Source: Nitrospirales bacterium
Lineage (GTDB): Bacteria > Nitrospirota > Nitrospiria > Nitrospirales > UBA8639
Direction of reading: 5' to 3'
Assembly: GCA_029261355.1 (NCBI GenBank)
Contig: JAJDBM010000010.1
Span: forward strand, 1 to 64,000
Length of the DNA: 64,000 nt
Shown here: positions 43,062 through 52,275 of the stretch, piece after piece
Position numbering within the stretch: position 1 is the stretch's first letter
Layout of the letters: each line of letters begins with the position of its first letter
The notes under the pieces: model-generated
Databases searched by the model: none
Told to the model about the DNA's origin: nothing
Seen by the model: the letters and a program-made list of their open reading frames with translations, nothing else
Translations under genes and position numbers: made by a program

Positions 43062-44201
43062 ATGAGAAAGTCTGAAGAGGCTCAGGTGCATGTGAGTCAT
43101 GCAACTTCCGATACGCTTCTCCTCACATTAAAGGGAAGCTGGAAACTTCAATCTGGGATTCCACCGTTTACTGAAATTGAAAAAACTATCGAGTCGAGTA
43201 CTGGAATTCAGCAACTGACCTTTGACTCCCAGCACGTCACGAGTTGGGACAGTGGTCTGGTCACATTCGTGCTCAGAGTTCTGACTTATTGCACACAGCA
43301 TCGAATCGAAGTTGACCGAACAGACCTTCCTGAAGGTGTTCAACGTCTTGTGAGTCTGGCCTTAGCCGTTCCTGAACAGCAGGGTACGAGACGATTGATT
43401 CCTTCAGAGTCCTGGCTTGCTCGATTTGGAAAAGAGGTGATGGTGACGCTAGAAGGGGCGAACGCCATGATTGCGTTTGTCGGGGACGCGTCACTGGCAT
43501 TTTGGGCGTTATTGGCGGGTAAGGCTCGTTTTCGTCGGTCAGACCTGTCGTTGACTATTCAAGAATGCGGGATACAGGCGCTTCCCATTGTTTCATTGAT
43601 CAGTTTCCTCGTTGGATTAATCTTGGCCTTTGTTGGGGCTGTTCAGCTTCAGCAGTTTGGCGCACACATTTATGTTGCTGACCTAGTTGGATTAGGTATG
43701 GCCAGAGAAATGGGTGCAATGATGACGGGAATTATTATGGGAGGTCGAACCGGAGCGGCTTTTGCCGCGCAACTGGGGACGATGCGAGTGAATCAAGAGA
43801 TTGATGCGATGATCACCTTAGGGCTTTCTCCAATGGAATTTCTGGTCCTGCCACGCATGCTCGCATTATCATTGATGATGCCATTACTCTGTCTTTATGC
43901 TGATCTCATGGGAATACTTGGTGGAATGGTCGTGGGAGTCACTATGTTGGACTTGGGATTTCTTCAATATTTTAATCAGACGCAGGCTTCGCTCAGTCTC
44001 ATGGATTTCTTTCTCGGTTTGGTGAAAAGCATGGTCTTTGGTGTCCTAGTGGCGATGGCTGGTTGTCTACGAGGTATGCAATGCGGGAATAGTTCTGCCG
44101 CTGTAGGGATTGCGGCAACTTCAGCCGTGGTCACGAGTATTGTATTTATCGTAGTGTCAGATTCAATCTTAACTGTTATTTACAATGCGATCGGTGTGTA
44201 A
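43062..44201 (+). CDS. mlaE: MlaE-type ABC permease with N-terminal STAS domain
   Basis: A 379-residue protein. Residues about 8-110 look like a STAS domain (QQLTFDSQHVTSWDSGLVTF), here fused to the permease. From about 130 on there is the MlaE fold: IQECGIQALPIVSLISFLVG and the conserved GLGMAREMGAMMTGIIMGGR (about residues 210-229), then five hydrophobic segments. It is the membrane subunit of a lipid transporter between inner and outer membranes. In E. coli the STAS domain is a separate protein, MlaB. First of four genes; the ATPase follows after 9 bases. Confidence 0.85.
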   Translation: MRKSEEAQVHVSHATSDTLLLTLKGSWKLQSGIPPFTEIEKTIESSTGIQQLTFDSQHVTSWDSGLVTFVLRVLTYCTQHRIEVDRTDLPEGVQRLVSLALAVPEQQGTRRLIPSESWLARFGKEVMVTLEGANAMIAFVGDASLAFWALLAGKARFRRSDLSLTIQECGIQALPIVSLISFLVGLILAFVGAVQLQQFGAHIYVADLVGLGMAREMGAMMTGIIMGGRTGAAFAAQLGTMRVNQEIDAMITLGLSPMEFLVLPRMLALSLMMPLLCLYADLMGILGGMVVGVTMLDLGFLQYFNQTQASLSLMDFFLGLVKSMVFGVLVAMAGCLRGMQCGNSSAAVGIAATSAVVTSIVFIVVSDSILTVIYNAIGV

Positions 44202-44210
44202 GGTCTGGTG

Positions 44211-44990
44211 ATGGTTATGAATGCAACGCCTCATATCTCTATTGAAAATCTGACCATGGCCTATGGTGATTTCCTCATTCAGCGTGATCTCACTTTTACC
44301 ATCAATCGTGGAGATATATTTATTATTATGGGTGGGAGCGGGTGCGGGAAAAGTACGCTCTTACGACATTTAGTTGGATTGAAACGACCAGCTAAAGGGG
44401 ATGTTCGGTATGAGGGGGAAAGCTTTTGGAATGCCCAGCCCGAAAGTCGAGCAGGAAGAATGAAGCAATTTGGGGTTCTTTTCCAAAGTGGGGCATTGTG
44501 GAGTTCCATGACCTTAGCTGAAAATGTTGAATTACCATTGGCAGAATATACGAACTTGACGCCTGATGAAATTCGGGAGATTGTATCGTTCAAACTTGCG
44601 TTGGTGGGGCTTGCAGGATTTGAAGAATTTTATCCGAACGAAATTAGTGGAGGAATGCAGAAGCGGGCAGGATTAGCTCGGGCGATGGCCCTTGATCCAG
44701 AAATTCTTTTTTTTGACGAACCGTCTGCGGGTTTAGATCCTATCAGCTCAAGGCGGCTTGATGAATTAATTCTTGAACTTCGTGACAGTCTTGGAGCAAC
44801 CGTGGTGATTGTGACACATGAGTTGGCCAGTATTTTTGCGATAGGGACCAATTCAGTATTTCTTGATGCAGAAACGAAAACGATGTTAGCCGTCGGGTCG
44901 CCTCGCATGCTATTGGAAGAATCAGCCGATCACAAAATTCAGACATTCCTGACACGGGGAGATGGGAAAACTGAGAAAGCTGACACTTGA
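44211..44990 (+). CDS. mlaF: MlaF-type ABC transporter ATPase
   Basis: A 259-residue ATPase with Walker A GGSGCGKSTLLRHL (about residue 41), Q-loop FQSGALWSSMT, signature EISGGMQKRAGLAR, Walker B ILFFDEPSAGLDP and switch His in VTHE. This is the MlaF/Ttg2A set. I chose ATG 44211 with AAGG seven bases upstream; GTG 44208 or ATG 44217 are possible. Powers the permease encoded upstream. Confidence 0.9.
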   Translation: MVMNATPHISIENLTMAYGDFLIQRDLTFTINRGDIFIIMGGSGCGKSTLLRHLVGLKRPAKGDVRYEGESFWNAQPESRAGRMKQFGVLFQSGALWSSMTLAENVELPLAEYTNLTPDEIREIVSFKLALVGLAGFEEFYPNEISGGMQKRAGLARAMALDPEILFFDEPSAGLDPISSRRLDELILELRDSLGATVVIVTHELASIFAIGTNSVFLDAETKTMLAVGSPRMLLEESADHKIQTFLTRGDGKTEKADT

Positions 44991-45061
44991 AATGAAAGAG
45001 ACGACTCTTTCTTTCATATTCTCCTTCATCTTGTTGCCAATAAAACTTTCAGCAGCCTTCT

Positions 45062-46069
45062 ATGAGTAAACAAGCCAATCCAACGCTTATCGGAGCTTTT
45101 GTCCTTGGTGCCATTGTATTGGTGATCACGGGCGTTGTGGTGTTTGGTAGTGGGAAGCTCTTACAGGACAAGCTTGCGTACGTGCTCTATTTTGATGATG
45201 ATCTGAAAGGATTGGATGTGGGGGCAGCCGTCACATTTCGTGGGACGAGAGTGGGCACGGTCTCAGATATTAAAGTGGTCATTGATGCTCAGGGCGAATC
45301 GATTCGAATTCCAGTGACCATAGAAATAGAAGAAGGGACAGTCGAAGTGACCAATACGACCCCAGATACCATCCAGTCTGGAAGTCTTGATCAAATGAAG
45401 GACCGAGAATTCATCCAAAAGTTAATTGATCATCGAGGGTTTCGAGCGCAATTACAAATGCAAAGTCTTGTGACAGGGAAACTGATCGTCCAACTTGATT
45501 TTTTCCCAAATAGTCCGATCAAATTGCACACTGGGCTTGCAGATTCCTATCCAGAATTCCCAACGACTTCATCGAGCTTAAGCCAATTGGCTCATAAATT
45601 GGAAGATATTCCTTTCAAGGACCTTGTTAATGCCGCGTTACGAGCAATCCAGGGGTTTGATCAACTGATTCATTCGCCTGATGTGAAAGGACTTGGTGCT
45701 GAGACACGAGTCCTTTTGAAAGACTTGCGTGCATTGACGCAAGACGTGAAGAGGGAATTGGGTCCGCTTGTGTCAGATGTCGATGATACGATTCGGGACA
45801 CGCAGGACTTGGTTCGGCATATTGATGGTCAAGTGAATCCGCTCAGTTCCAGTTTGAAAGAGATGGCAGATTCTGCACGGCTGAGTCTGCAACAAACGAA
45901 TCACACGCTTTCAACGATCAAAGGGGTGGCGGGGAAGAGCGTGGCACTGCCGTATCAGCTTTCCCAAACGCTCAAAGAATTCTCTGCGGCTTCAAGAGCT
46001 ATTAGGACACTTGCAGAATATTTAGAGCGTCATCCCGAAGCGCTCATCCAGGGGAAGGGTGATTCATGA
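45062..46069 (+). CDS. mlaD: MCE/MlaD-domain protein
   Basis: A 335-residue protein with one N-terminal membrane helix (LIGAFVLGAIVLVITGVVVF). It has an MCE domain (YFDDDLKGLDVGAAVTFRGTRVGTV near 42-66) and a second part with LQMQSLVTGKLIVQLDF. A long helical tail follows, rich in TQDVKRELGP-like heptads, that may form a tunnel or needle as in PqiB/LetB relatives. It is anchored in the inner membrane and binds lipid substrates. Its stop overlaps the next gene by four bases. Single MCE domain, hence closer to MlaD than to PqiB. Confidence 0.85.
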   Translation: MSKQANPTLIGAFVLGAIVLVITGVVVFGSGKLLQDKLAYVLYFDDDLKGLDVGAAVTFRGTRVGTVSDIKVVIDAQGESIRIPVTIEIEEGTVEVTNTTPDTIQSGSLDQMKDREFIQKLIDHRGFRAQLQMQSLVTGKLIVQLDFFPNSPIKLHTGLADSYPEFPTTSSSLSQLAHKLEDIPFKDLVNAALRAIQGFDQLIHSPDVKGLGAETRVLLKDLRALTQDVKRELGPLVSDVDDTIRDTQDLVRHIDGQVNPLSSSLKEMADSARLSLQQTNHTLSTIKGVAGKSVALPYQLSQTLKEFSAASRAIRTLAEYLERHPEALIQGKGDS

Positions 46070-46677
46070 ACAGGCTTCGACGTGGTCTACGAAATTGGGG
46101 GTTGGGTTTTTGTGGGCTCGTTTTTTTAGTAGGTTGCGGCAGTACTGCCCCTATACATTATTACCAATTGAGTGCGATGCCTTATTCGGCGACTGAAGAG
46201 ACGCCATCTCGAGTAGAGGACGGAACCGTGGTGGGGATTGGTCCGGTAGATATTCCCTCCTATGTGGATCGAGCCCATCTCGTCATTCGTGCCGGCGAAA
46301 CCGAACTTGAGTTGCTGGAGTCAGATCGTTGGGTGGAACCCTTGCAGCGCAATTTGACAAGAGTTTTGATCGATAATCTTTCACAAGAATTAGCGAGTGA
46401 CGGCATAAATGCCTTGCGCTGGGACGAAGGGTTTTCCCTTGATTATCGTATTCGCATTGAATTTACCCAATTAGATTTTTCAAAGACTGGCGAGGTGTCT
46501 CTTGGTGCCCGCTGGATCATTTCCTGGCAAGATAGCCAGGAAACGCTGGTTATTAAGACATCACGGTTTCACACCTCTAGCATTCCTGGGGACTATCGTT
46601 CTCTGGTTTCTGAAATGAGCCGCCACGTAGAATCACTCAGCCGAGAAATTGCCCAGGCCGTCAGGTCACATATTTGA
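46066..46677 (+). CDS. ABC-type transport auxiliary lipoprotein (PqiC/DUF330 type)
   Basis: A 203-residue lipoprotein; signal peptide with lipobox LVGC (Cys24). The mature part starts GSTAPIHYYQLSAMPYS and includes VGIGPVDIPSYVDRAHLVIR, a signature of the PqiC/YmbA family that works with MCE proteins at the outer membrane. ATG overlaps the MCE gene stop by four bases, so it is the fourth gene of the lipid-transport operon. Confidence 0.85.
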   Translation: MNRLRRGLRNWGLGFCGLVFLVGCGSTAPIHYYQLSAMPYSATEETPSRVEDGTVVGIGPVDIPSYVDRAHLVIRAGETELELLESDRWVEPLQRNLTRVLIDNLSQELASDGINALRWDEGFSLDYRIRIEFTQLDFSKTGEVSLGARWIISWQDSQETLVIKTSRFHTSSIPGDYRSLVSEMSRHVESLSREIAQAVRSHI

Positions 46678-47963: not shown

Positions 47964-48413
47964 CTATTCCGTGCAATTACTCATGCCGTTTCTGCAAACG
48001 CGAAACTGGCTGTATTTTATTTCTTTGTTTTTTAAGGTATAACACTTGTCTTTTCCATTCCGTACAATTTCCCTTGAAGCTCCTATGCCACATGGCAACG
48101 GAGGGCCGGAAAACCCACCAACCGTGCACCGATCTTTCCCTCTTGACCTCCCAGACGATGTTTCATCTCCCACCTTGTAGCGTCCCGGTGATTTACAGGG
48201 AGTGTAGGATTTATAATTCCTAATGGGCTTCTTCGGGGTGATCCACCGCCAGCATTCAATGATGTTCCCACTATTGGATTTCGTGATATGAACCTCGTAT
48301 GGCTTGGGACAAATAACTCGCTGAACATTATCGGCCCACGCTGTTGATCCCATAAAAAGTGAGACCATGAACATCAAGAACAAAGCACGAGCAATAGTCC
48401 TATGGCATATCAT
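47964..48413 (-). CDS. Small Cys-rich secreted protein, unknown
   Basis: A 149-residue protein. ATG 48413 has GGAGG eight bases upstream; a signal peptide (LFLMFMVSLFMGSTAWA) ends near residue 27. The mature part has about eight cysteines (VICPK, IIECWRW, YTPCKS, DRCTVGG, LPCGIG, DKCYTL, FRVCRNG, SNCTE), suggesting several disulfides. No family recognised. It converges with the Met-rich gene at 47433-47861. Confidence 0.65.
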   Translation of the reverse strand: MICHRTIARALFLMFMVSLFMGSTAWADNVQRVICPKPYEVHITKSNSGNIIECWRWITPKKPIRNYKSYTPCKSPGRYKVGDETSSGRSRGKDRCTVGGFSGPPLPCGIGASREIVRNGKDKCYTLKNKEIKYSQFRVCRNGMSNCTE

Positions 48414-48718
48414 CAATTAAACCTCCAGATTTCAAACTATTCAGCATACTCCATATATGTCAGCCGCCATCCCTAAGCGATGAGCCATGTTAGCATCTGG
48501 AAATTTAAGCGGTCTACTTAGAAGTTTATAGATGTGTTGAGCCGGAGTTCTTTGATCTCGAGTAGTCTCAATATTCATAATAATGATAAAAGGGACTGTT
48601 CGCAAAATATTTGGTCGTGTATTGGGGAGGGTGCAGCAGAGAGGTTAGGTGTCACAGCTCTTGAGGTGACATGATTGTGATGGTTGGTAGGGAATGTCGT
48701 TATTGAGGAATGAATGAC
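48414..48718. other. No gene seen
   Basis: A 305-base spacer between two minus-strand genes. I see no terminator or repeat. Confidence 0.4.
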
Positions 48719-49363
48719 TTACTCGCGAGTAAACTGAGCGCCTATATCTATTGCTGTTGCTCGAATAGTTCCTGCGGCAACCATTTCTTGAAGTGCCTGT
48801 TCTGAATCATCTGGTTTAAGGTTGACTCCGCATATGGCATCTTCAAGCACCACCATACGTAAGCCTAGTTTCATTCCATCTAACACCGTTTGATTAATCC
48901 AATACTCTGTGGCAAGTCCAACGATATATACCGTTGAGGCATGTCGGTCTTCGAGGTAGTCTGCGAGGGATGTTCCGTCAAATCCTGAATGTATATCCTT
49001 TTTAGGGTTGGTTGCTCCAGAAATAATCAGGCTGCCGTTTGGGAGGTGGAGGTTTGCATGGAACTGTGCGCCTCGTGATCCCTGCACGCAATGCGGAGGC
49101 CATGGCCCTCCTTGTTCTTGAAAGGAGCAGTGGTTTTGTGGATGCCAGTCACGCGTCGCCATGATGGCGGAGAGTTGATGCTGGAAGTATCCGATGTATT
49201 GATTGATTTGAGGGATAATGTGATCGCCTTCTGGTATTGCTAGTGATCCGCCAGGGAAAAAATCATTTTGCAGATGCACAAGAACAAGGGCAGATTGTTT
49301 GTCTGGTACCAGACTGTCTTGCGCTGTAGCGGTAGGCTCTGTCGATTTTTTGACGAGTTTCAT
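48719..49363 (-). CDS. Isochorismatase-family protein, nicotinamidase-like without catalytic residues
   Basis: A 214-residue protein of the cysteine-hydrolase superfamily that aligns with nicotinamidase PncA over its full length. The metal ligands are kept: Asp72 and His74 in ATRDWHPQNH, His78, and His91 in PPHCVQGS. The catalytic triad is gone: VHLQNDFF has His30 for the Asp nucleophile-activating residue, IISGATNP has Gly116 for the Lys, and GLATEYWINQ has Trp155 for the Cys. Deamidase activity is therefore not expected; a binding or regulatory role is possible. The gene starts two bases after the argB stop and probably depends on its translation. Confidence 0.8.
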   Translation of the reverse strand: MKLVKKSTEPTATAQDSLVPDKQSALVLVHLQNDFFPGGSLAIPEGDHIIPQINQYIGYFQHQLSAIMATRDWHPQNHCSFQEQGGPWPPHCVQGSRGAQFHANLHLPNGSLIISGATNPKKDIHSGFDGTSLADYLEDRHASTVYIVGLATEYWINQTVLDGMKLGLRMVVLEDAICGVNLKPDDSEQALQEMVAAGTIRATAIDIGAQFTRE

Positions 49364-49367
49364 TAGG

Positions 49368-50261
49368 TTATGCCACGATTTCTGTTCCGATACCTTTATC
49401 GGTAAATATCTCTAACAAGATGGCATGGGGAACTCGTCCATCAATGATGTGTGCTTTATTCACCCCTCCATGTATGGCGGCTAGGCACGCATGGACTTTC
49501 GGTAGCATCCCTTCGCTAATGATCTTTTTCTTGACCATGCGTTCCGTGTCTTTCCGTGACAACGTAGGGACGTGATGGTTGTCCGCATCGCGAATGCCTT
49601 TGACGTCGCTGAGTACTAATAATTTCTCAGCTCCCAATGCGCCTGCCACACTTCCCGCAACCAGGTCGGCATTGATGTTATGAGTTTTCCCTTTTTTGTC
49701 CACTCCAATGGGTGCGATGACGGGAATGAAGTTTTCTTCGAGTAGTTTGACGAGCAAGTGGTCATCGACTTTGTCGACTTCCCCAACCAATCCGTAGTCA
49801 TGATCTTCTGAAACGTCTGTTCCACCAGAAAGGCTCTGCACTAATGCCTTAGCATTAAATGGTTTGGTTAAAAACAAACCTCCATCTTTTCCTGTAAGTC
49901 CAACAGCTTTGCCGCCATGTTGATTGAGTAGGCTGACAATTTCTTTGTTGATTTTTCCTCCGAGCACCATCTCGACGACGTCCATCGTGGCTTGGTCAGT
50001 AATTCGAACACCATTGATGAATTTTGGTTTGATCCCTAACCTATCAAGCATGGTATTAATTTGAGGGCCCCCTCCATGAATTACCACGGGATTGAGCCCC
50101 ACGTATTTGAGCAGTACGACGTCTTCGGCAAATCCTTCTTTCAGGTCATCCTGCGTCATGGCTGCTCCTCCGTACTTTATTACGATCGTTTTGCCCGCAA
50201 AGGTACGAATGTACGGAAGTGCTTCAACGAGAATATCGGCTTTTTTGATAAGTTTGTCCAT
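49368..50261 (-). CDS. argB: Acetylglutamate kinase
   Basis: A 297-residue enzyme of arginine synthesis that phosphorylates N-acetyl-L-glutamate. Motifs: IVIKYGGAAM (nucleotide/phosphate binding near residue 27), VVIHGGGPQIN, INADLVAGSVAGALGAEKLL and the C-terminal KVHACLAAIHGGVNKAHIID. An N-terminal helix (KKADILVEALPYIRTF) is present, as in arginine-inhibited forms, which is suggestive only. It lies between hslU and the isochorismatase-like gene on the minus strand. Confidence 0.95.
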   Translation of the reverse strand: MDKLIKKADILVEALPYIRTFAGKTIVIKYGGAAMTQDDLKEGFAEDVVLLKYVGLNPVVIHGGGPQINTMLDRLGIKPKFINGVRITDQATMDVVEMVLGGKINKEIVSLLNQHGGKAVGLTGKDGGLFLTKPFNAKALVQSLSGGTDVSEDHDYGLVGEVDKVDDHLLVKLLEENFIPVIAPIGVDKKGKTHNINADLVAGSVAGALGAEKLLVLSDVKGIRDADNHHVPTLSRKDTERMVKKKIISEGMLPKVHACLAAIHGGVNKAHIIDGRVPHAILLEIFTDKGIGTEIVA

Positions 50262-50327: not shown

Positions 50328-51731
50328 TTAGAGAATAAAGCGACTCAAGTCTTCATCTTTGACGATGTTGTGGAGATGTTTTTTGACATAGGGCGCATCA
50401 ATAACGACTTTTTTCTCAGTGAGTTCTTGCGCTTCAAACGATACTTCTTCCAACATTCGTTCAACAATAGTGAAGAGTCTGCGTGCTCCAATATTTTCCG
50501 TTCGATCATTGACTTCCACGGCAGTAGCTGCGATCTCTTGAATACCATCTTTTGTAAAATCAAGTAAAACTCCCTCAGTTTCAAGAAGGGCTTGGTATTG
50601 TTTGACCAGCGCGTTTTTGGGCTCGGTTAAAATTCGTACCAAATCCTCTTTCGTGAGGGCTTCAAGTTCAACGCGGATAGGGAAGCGTCCTTGTAGCTCT
50701 GGTATGAGGTCTGATGGCTTGGACACATGAAATGCCCCAGCCGCGATAAATAAGATATGGTCTGTGCGAACGGGACCATACTTAGTATTGACGGTTGATC
50801 CTTCTACGATTGGGAGCAAGTCGCGTTGGACGCCCTCACGGGAAATGTCAGGTCCTGTGCTTTTTTCACGTCCAGCAATTTTGTCAATTTCATCTAAGAA
50901 GACGATGCCGGATTGTTCTGTTTTTTCGATGGCCTCTTTTGTGACTTCATCCATATCAATAAGCTTTTGAGCTTCTTCTTGGGCAAGGACCTTCATGGCT
51001 TCGGGGACCTTCATCCGGCGATTTTTACTTTTCCCTGGCATGATCCCACCCAGCATATCCCGCAAATTATTTTCTAAGTCTTCCATGCCTCCGACATTAG
51101 AAATGATTCCGACAGGGAGTCCTCGCTCTTTTACCTCAAGTTCCACATGCCTATTTTCAAGCTTTCCTTCTCGTAATTGTTTCCGAAGTTTCTGTCGCGT
51201 ATCGTCTGCAGTGTCATATCGGTCTGCTTGATCGTTGTCACGGTCTTTTGGTTGTTGAGCAGATGATGGTGGTGAAGAGCTGGGCGGAAGCAGGAGGTCC
51301 AGAATTCGATCCTCTGCCAAATCTTCAGCTTTTTTTTCTACCATCTCGAGGTAGCGAGTCTTGACCATGTTCACCGATAGTTCGGTTAAATCTCGGATGA
51401 GCGACTCCACATCTCGTCCGACGTACCCAACTTCTGTAAATTTCGAAGCTTCTATTTTAATGAACGGGGCATCATCTAGCTTTGCTAGGCGACGGGAGAT
51501 TTCTGTTTTCCCAACGCCTGTGGGTCCAATCATGATGATGTTTTTTGGGTAAATTTCTTCACGTAACTCAGGGCTCAACTGTTGTCGACGCCACCGGTTT
51601 CTCAGTGCGATCGCTACCATGCGTTTCGCGTCGCGTTGTCCAATAATATATCGATCGAGCTCATCAACGATTTGTCGTGGCGTGAGGCCGTCGAGTCGGC
51701 TTGGAGTTTGTGTTGTGTCGTGGTCCATCAT
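50328..51731 (-). CDS. hslU: HslU, ATPase of the HslUV protease
   Basis: A 467-residue AAA+ unfoldase. Start text [20 protein letters not shown] is typical; Walker [15 protein letters not shown], pore loop [11 protein letters not shown], an I-domain (about 130-230), Walker [12 protein letters not shown] and the C-terminal DLSRFIL that inserts into HslV are all seen. I start at ATG 51731, two bases past the hslV stop; GAGGAG lies in the end of hslV. Works with HslV in cytoplasmic protein degradation. Confidence 0.95.
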
Positions 51732-51732
51732 C

Positions 51733-52275
51733 TTAGCTTGGCAACTCCTCAATAATGATATTTTGATTGGTATAGATATCTATTGCTGCAGCAATATTCA
51801 TAGCATGTCCGACGATGTCTTTCGGTTCAAGCGATGTCTGAGTGATGAGTGCTCGCGCCGCCGCTAATGCATAGGGACCGCCTGAGCCAATCGCCATGAT
51901 ACCATCTTCTGGTTCGACGACGTCACCCGTGCCAGAGATAATAAAGGAATGTTCTTGATTCGCGACGGTGAGTAACGCTTCCAACCGTCGAAGCACCCGA
52001 TCGGTACGCCAGTCCTTGGCCAATTCAACAGCCGCTCGCGTCAGATTGCCTCGATACTCCTCCAGTTTGGCATCAAACTTTTCAAATAATGTAAATGCGT
52101 CAGCTGTTGCTCCAGCAAACCCTGCGAGGACTTCGTTATTGTGCATCTTCCTCAATTTTTTGGCATTGGCCTTCATGACGGTTGTTCCGACCGTGACCTG
52201 CCCGTCACAGCCCATGGCCACGTGATTGTCTTTTCGAACACAAAGTATCGTCGTGGATCGAATTTTTATAGTCAT
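51733..52275 (-). CDS. hslV: HslV, proteolytic subunit of HslUV
   Basis: A 180-residue threonine protease. The propeptide MTIKIRS precedes the mature N-terminus [20 protein letters not shown], with Thr as nucleophile. [15 protein letters not shown] is another family signature. Gene order xerC-hslV-hslU with minimal gaps matches the operon known from Bacillus-type genomes, although codY is replaced here by argB. Confidence 0.95.

Follow-up and report, generated by a model that had tools for sequence, protein, structure and literature searches.

A putative pseudo-nicotinamidase encoded behind argB in a genus of Nitrospirales

The window, a 64,000-nt stretch of DNA from a Nitrospirales bacterium, contains directly behind argB a gene for a protein with the predicted fold of the nicotinamidase PncA, in which none of the three residues of the Asp-Lys-Cys catalytic triad is present. 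We consider it reasonably probable that this protein is a pseudo-nicotinamidase, derived from bacterial PncA and kept as a ligand- or partner-binding protein. The evolutionary part of the pseudoenzyme reading, drawn from sequence comparisons, is well supported; the function is a prediction.

The gene and its neighbourhood

The gene, its upstream neighbours and the codons of interest are as follows (positions in the window, all on the minus strand).

48719..49363, minus: putative pseudo-nicotinamidase open reading frame, 214 aa, ATG start, stop included
49364..49367, minus: 4-bp spacer CCTA from the argB stop to the ATG; equal distance in all five members of the genus
49368..50261, minus: argB, directly upstream; linkage seen in all family orthologues checked
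50328..52275, minus: hslU and hslV, further upstream in the gene run; hslU adjoins argB also in argB-linked outgroups
49274..49276, minus: codon of His30, which stands where PncA has its catalytic Asp (general base), from alignment to PncA structures
49142..49150, minus: codons 72-74 (DWH), which include metal residues Asp72 and His74; conserved throughout g1 and in all g4/g7 orthologues but one
49100..49102, minus: codon of Trp88, a pocket residue equivalent to the ring-stacking Trp68 of the M. tuberculosis enzyme, from alignment and PMC3025910
49091..49093, minus: codon of His91, third metal residue, invariant in the alignments
49016..49018, minus: codon of Gly116, at the position of the catalytic Lys of PncA, from PncA and family alignments
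48899..48901, minus: codon of Trp155, at the position of the nucleophilic Cys of PncA, from PncA and family alignments

A first-pass annotation, made from the sequence alone, had described a frame intact over 214 codons and a location behind argB in a housekeeping operon. Both descriptions hold. The frame is confirmed on the minus strand with its ATG, and the plus strand of 48719-49363 has stops throughout; trmFO, xerC, hslV, hslU and argB precede the gene on the same strand, in that order, and the gene comes last. In every family orthologue where argB is visible, argB lies upstream on the same strand. Since the linkage is common to the family and to three genera outside it (L075-L077), it is old. 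The gap to argB stays short in g1, g5, g8, g10 and most g9 genomes and is wider in most g4/g7 genomes (genus labels, see below). Elsewhere in the window, a 150-aa ORF without a Pfam match lies downstream of the gene (47964-48416, minus strand), and genes for an MlaE permease, an ABC ATPase, MlaD and an auxiliary lipoprotein form a cluster of the lipid-transport type (43062-46677, plus strand).

A nicotinamidase fold without the triad

By profile and predicted fold, the protein is a member of the isochorismatase-like superfamily PF00857 (99.2 bits against a cut-off of 27, E 3.8e-28, for the isochorismatase domain). Its best profile is the PRK11609 nicotinamidase model, at 157.9 bits, which falls short of the NCBIfam equivalog cut-off of 174 bits. 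Among solved structures, P. horikoshii PncA comes closest in sequence (1ilw/1im5, phmmer E 8e-57), and an AlphaFold2 model built with 57 relatives (mean pLDDT 92.9) has 1ilw as its closest PDB structure in a fold search (TM 0.97 by target length, 1.1 A). A search of genome contigs gave only six Bartonella nicotinamidases, all with the normal triad, and one of plasmids only nicotinamidase-like matches of <60% identity.

The initial reading of the triad, with His30, Gly116 and Trp155 at the places of Asp, Lys and Cys, is upheld by gap-free alignment: in both the phmmer and the family alignments these residues correspond to Asp10, Lys94 and Cys133 of P. horikoshii PncA, with no indel nearby. Substitutions of the Asp and of the Lys abolish activity in characterised nicotinamidases (PMC3025910), and all three residues changed here are required in such enzymes; the K104A variant of the O. 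iheyensis nicotinamidase retains 1.45% of wild type, although its authors suspect misfolding (PMC3581539). As characterised nicotinamidases need all three residues, the window protein is probably not an amidase of the usual kind. By analogy with them, a protein devoid of nucleophile, general base and Lys would be incapable of hydrolysing nicotinamide.

Metal site and ring-binding pocket

The alignments predict a PncA-type Asp-His-His metal site formed by Asp72, His74 and His91. Four metal ligands had been proposed at first, and three of them stand. The fourth, His78, is the last His of the DWHPxxH motif and is invariant in nearly all relatives, but in the P. horikoshii type of this motif the last His is not placed to reach the metal, and only the M. 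tuberculosis form, with its two-residue insertion, uses it as a ligand (PMC3025910). Three ligands are therefore supported, and His78 is probably not one of them.

In the M. tuberculosis enzyme, the ring-stacking residues are Phe13 and Trp68 (PMC3025910); the window protein keeps both, as Phe35 and Trp88. All five members of the genus have F35, W88, L150, A151 and T152 together with the metal residues. Among proteins with the His/Gly type of active site, 9 of 12 pocket and metal sites are at least 90% conserved (hypergeometric p 0.046); in g1 alone the excess of pocket-site conservation is not significant (p 0.21). Pocket conservation in the His/Gly carriers faintly suggests ligand binding, without proving it.

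The orthologues of genus g9 (L040-L043, L045, L046 and others) mostly keep the triad and have lost pocket residues, one subgroup through Trp88 to His/Tyr and Leu150 to Pro, another through Ala151 to Pro. The two genera have thus taken opposite routes, g9 mostly keeping the triad and altering Trp88, Leu150 or Ala151, g1 keeping those residues and losing the triad. As read from the alignments, the g9 changes may represent a second, opposite departure from nicotinamidase function. Separately, in one g7 protein (L028, genome G010, without PncB) with an intact frame, C155F, D72A and W88S occur together, the metal site and the pocket eroding.

A series of active-site forms

The comparison set comprised 49 genomes of the family, in which the genus of the window, labelled g1, is represented by five species. 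Their proteins are 72-76% identical, have intact frames and all carry the His/Gly/Trp combination, one with Val for Gly. In the 11 g4 and 3 g7 proteins, His is paired with Gly, Val or Cys at the Lys position, and 13 of these 14 keep the nucleophilic Cys. The single g10 protein (G013) is of the His/Ser type; its residue 155, on which the dating of the Cys loss depends, falls inside a run of N (L044 2468-2567). At the three positions taken one by one, His30 occurs in 20/20 His/Gly-type orthologues and Asp in all others aligned across that site; position 116 is Gly in four of the five g1 proteins and Val in the fifth, Gly, Val or Cys in g4/g7 and Ser in g10; position 155 is Trp in 5/5 g1 proteins and Cys in 13/14 g4/g7 orthologues.

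Genera g3, g5, g6, g8 and g9 have Asp/Lys/Cys, except for Ser at residue 155 in G037 and Ala in G042. These two proteins (L021 and L042, respectively), with Asp and Lys kept, are further independent losses of the nucleophile. Nearly all distant relatives aligned have the full triad, the argB-linked outgroups included, with Thr for Cys in L094. The full triad in the other genera and in the outgroups makes the normal triad the ancestral state, and these alignments establish a normal-triad nicotinamidase as the product of the ancestral argB-linked gene. Because Cys is mostly kept in the other two His/Gly genera and the full triad is found elsewhere, the three changes differ in age.

Conservation of the three replacements in orthologues, the check proposed by the first-pass annotation, therefore gave a divided answer: His, Gly or Val, and Trp recur in all five species of the genus, but Trp155 is fixed only there. 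A lone mutation is excluded by the triad-less state of five genus genomes with intact frames. The gene is unmatched in the g4 genomes G030 and G040 and is a fragment in G036 (L066); missing or truncated in these three small genomes, its role is dispensable there.

Purifying selection on the altered form

Median pairwise dN/dS is 0.09 in g1, 0.10 in g4, 0.13-0.17 in the triad-bearing g9 and 0.03-0.06 for argB of the same genomes; these Nei-Gojobori values are approximate, the synonymous distance being >1 for most g1 pairs. The altered form is firmly constrained, in g1 no less than in triad-bearing g9. Every member of g1 keeps 42 of 52 ancestrally conserved sites, against 26 in g9, a rough comparison since g9 has more sequences. 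The early suggestion that selection keeps the gene is borne out by a dN/dS of ∼0.09 in five species, with five intact frames. Catalytic residues lost within a fold predicted to be intact, and an altered state held by purifying selection, are the marks of a pseudoenzyme. The proposal of a distinct triad-less form holds for the genus, where this form is selectively maintained, but the His/Gly carriers do not form one organismal clade.

Origin of the His/Gly form

In a gene tree that includes the catalytic columns, all His/Gly carriers group together. A single His/Gly clade as a simple one-origin story was dropped, because the grouping is circular with the catalytic columns and fails without them and on organism markers. 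ArgB alone rejects the carriers as one clade (AU p 1.3e-5). An organism tree from six proteins (ArgB, HslU, HslV, XerC, TrmFO and RpoB; 3013 columns) does so far more strongly, with a log-likelihood 284 lower and AU p 1e-66, and places g4 and g7 with g2, g3 and g6, and g1 and g10 with g5, g8 and g9. For the gene itself, stripped of its catalytic columns and analysed under a mixture model, the test rejects neither a single clade of His/Gly proteins (AU p 0.376) nor the union of g1 with g8 and g9 (AU p 0.277); a simpler model applied to all columns leaves the organism arrangement at the border of rejection (AU p 0.046). Besides His30, the sites that most favour one His/Gly group are largely residues 113-123 around the lost Lys, and several of these have states common to the outgroups too.

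As the organism tree rejects one clade and the gene tree permits it, two histories remain. The paired change may have arisen twice, with local co-adaptation. Alternatively, one variant may have spread by replacement at the locus, or by hidden duplication and loss, and we lean slightly to this second history. A stronger form of the first, in which two branches of the family each acquired the Asp-to-His and Lys-to-Gly switch on their own at the argB-linked gene and made a new protein class, with the metal pocket as a ligand sensor or a new metallo-hydrolase site, seems unlikely.

NAD metabolism and the loss of the nucleophile

Nicotinate phosphoribosyltransferase (PncB), which acts directly after nicotinamidase, is absent from all five genus genomes (PF04095 and TIGR01513). 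The TIGR01513 separation is clear-cut, with every PncB carrier at E about 1e-108 or better, down to 1e-153. Without PncB, nicotinamide hydrolysis could not feed NAD salvage in these five genomes. For de novo synthesis, NadA turns up in four of the five, the miss being G004 (86% complete), and in nearly all genomes of the family; PncB is patchy outside g1. A second pncA paralogue with the full triad occurs in six g9 genomes (L056, L058-L062); it adjoins pncB on the same contig in 6/6 and looks like half of a true salvage pair there. PncB loss as a full account of triad loss was rejected, as many g9 orthologues keep Asp/Lys/Cys in genomes without PncB.

Loss of the Cys has been seen so far only in genomes without PncB or with a second pncA copy. 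This pattern brings in an explanation that we hold improbable, in which the His/Gly/Cys proteins of g4/g7 are working nicotinamidases with a Cys-His dyad, the Cys being lost later only where nicotinate salvage was lost, as in g1. Thirteen His/Gly proteins retain the Cys, and 8 of these come from genomes that have PncB; the seven that have lost it (five g1, G010 and the G036 fragment) all come from genomes lacking PncB (Fisher p 0.015, uncorrected for kinship and with few independent losses). The Cys losses among triad-type orthologues fit as well, G037 having a second pncA beside pncB and G042 no PncB. Against a dyad stand the few independent losses on which these counts rest and the fact that substitutions of Asp or Lys kill characterised nicotinamidases (PMC3025910; 1.45% for K104A, PMC3581539). 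Moreover, the g4 genome G040 has PncB and not one isochorismatase-family gene, so PncB there needs no nicotinamidase. The dyad in g4/g7 and a pseudo-nicotinamidase in g1 could both hold.

A binding protein or a new enzyme

The comparisons show the following course. Starting from a normal-triad nicotinamidase gene behind argB, some lineages changed Asp to His and Lys to Gly; g1 in addition replaced the nucleophilic Cys by Trp, which was fixed. Purifying selection meanwhile held the frame, the fold, the metal residues and the pocket for the ring. The His/Gly/Cys proteins of g4/g7 may represent a step on the way. Together, the metal and the aromatic cage of Phe35 and Trp88 may still accommodate a small ligand, either a nicotinamide-like ring or something else able to coordinate the metal. 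The room vacated where the nucleophile and the Lys used to be is probably taken up by Trp155. Since a metal site beside an aromatic cage is what remains, we think a binding role most likely, in agreement with the non-hydrolytic role suggested by the first-pass annotation; the protein probably binds or senses in a ligand-dependent way, and a protein partner may be involved. It is tempting to propose ArgB as the candidate partner, a guess from tight coupling and position alone.

The invariance of His30 (20/20 His/Gly orthologues) would fit new chemistry equally well and counts against the reading as a pure binder. The protein could still be an enzyme in which a metal-bound water is the nucleophile, His30 the base and the substrate something other than nicotinamide. 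The kept metal site and strong purifying selection agree with this, and loss of the Lys, together with the lack of Trp outside g1, would open the pocket. However, the bulky Trp155 probably occupies that very space in g1, position 116 tolerates Gly, Val, Ser and Cys, and a metal-water amidase of the same fold was not found in the literature searched, which makes such an enzyme an outside prospect.

Against retention as a pseudo-nicotinamidase, the gene could be a decaying remnant preserved merely by riding behind argB. Neutral first steps are plausible after PncB loss, and some orthologues are eroding (C155F, D72A and W88S in L028; truncation in G036). Decay is nevertheless very unlikely in g1: dN/dS is ∼0.09, with synonymous distances >1 between most pairs of species, all five frames are intact, Trp155 is fixed and 42/52 ancestrally conserved sites are kept; moreover, the gene closes the run, and from the map no polar effect would be expected if it were lost. 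A sequencing or assembly artefact, favoured by nothing except the draft status of the genomes, is refuted by the recurrence of His/Gly-or-Val/Trp in five separate genomes, in one of which two contigs show it.

Comparison with known systems

A true pseudo-nicotinamidase would add a non-catalytic branch to a well-studied enzyme family. The full-triad, His/Gly/Cys and His/Gly/Trp stages all occur at one conserved locus in living relatives, so that one can test directly in which order the catalytic residues were lost and how a new role was gained. Annotation calls for caution, as a pncA label assigned by a pipeline would imply a salvage route without counterpart in the genus genomes. No paper with both 'nicotinamidase' and 'pseudoenzyme' was found in the open-licence literature, which is not proof that none exists.

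The closest known system is PncA (P. horikoshii PH999, 1ilw/1im5; PRK11609). The window protein resembles it in fold (TM 0.97), metal residues, ring-binding Phe and Trp, and the sequence of the cis-peptide/oxyanion segment. It differs in the replacement of all three catalytic residues, in a score below the PRK11609 cut-off and in genomes without PncB, whose presence is a matter of genomic context and no strict part of the definition of a nicotinamidase. The Cys-less isochorismatases PhzD and EntB belong to the same superfamily; they keep an acidic residue and the Lys, and in their case losing the Cys alone need not end catalysis, whereas in the window protein the catalytic Asp and Lys are both replaced. 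PhzD has Gly at the place of the Cys (PMC10213629). A superfamily precedent for a protein-binding role is the isochorismatase-like CrcA (PA1677) of Pseudomonas aeruginosa, whose reported role is binding of the Crc protein (PMC10213629); the likeness is one of description, not of sequence comparison. In CrcA the Cys is changed to Ser and the other two active-site residues are kept (PMC10213629), whereas the window protein keeps none of the three. With pseudoenzymes in general (PMC5106787, PMC10211241), the window protein shares a conserved predicted fold, lost catalytic residues and retention under selection.
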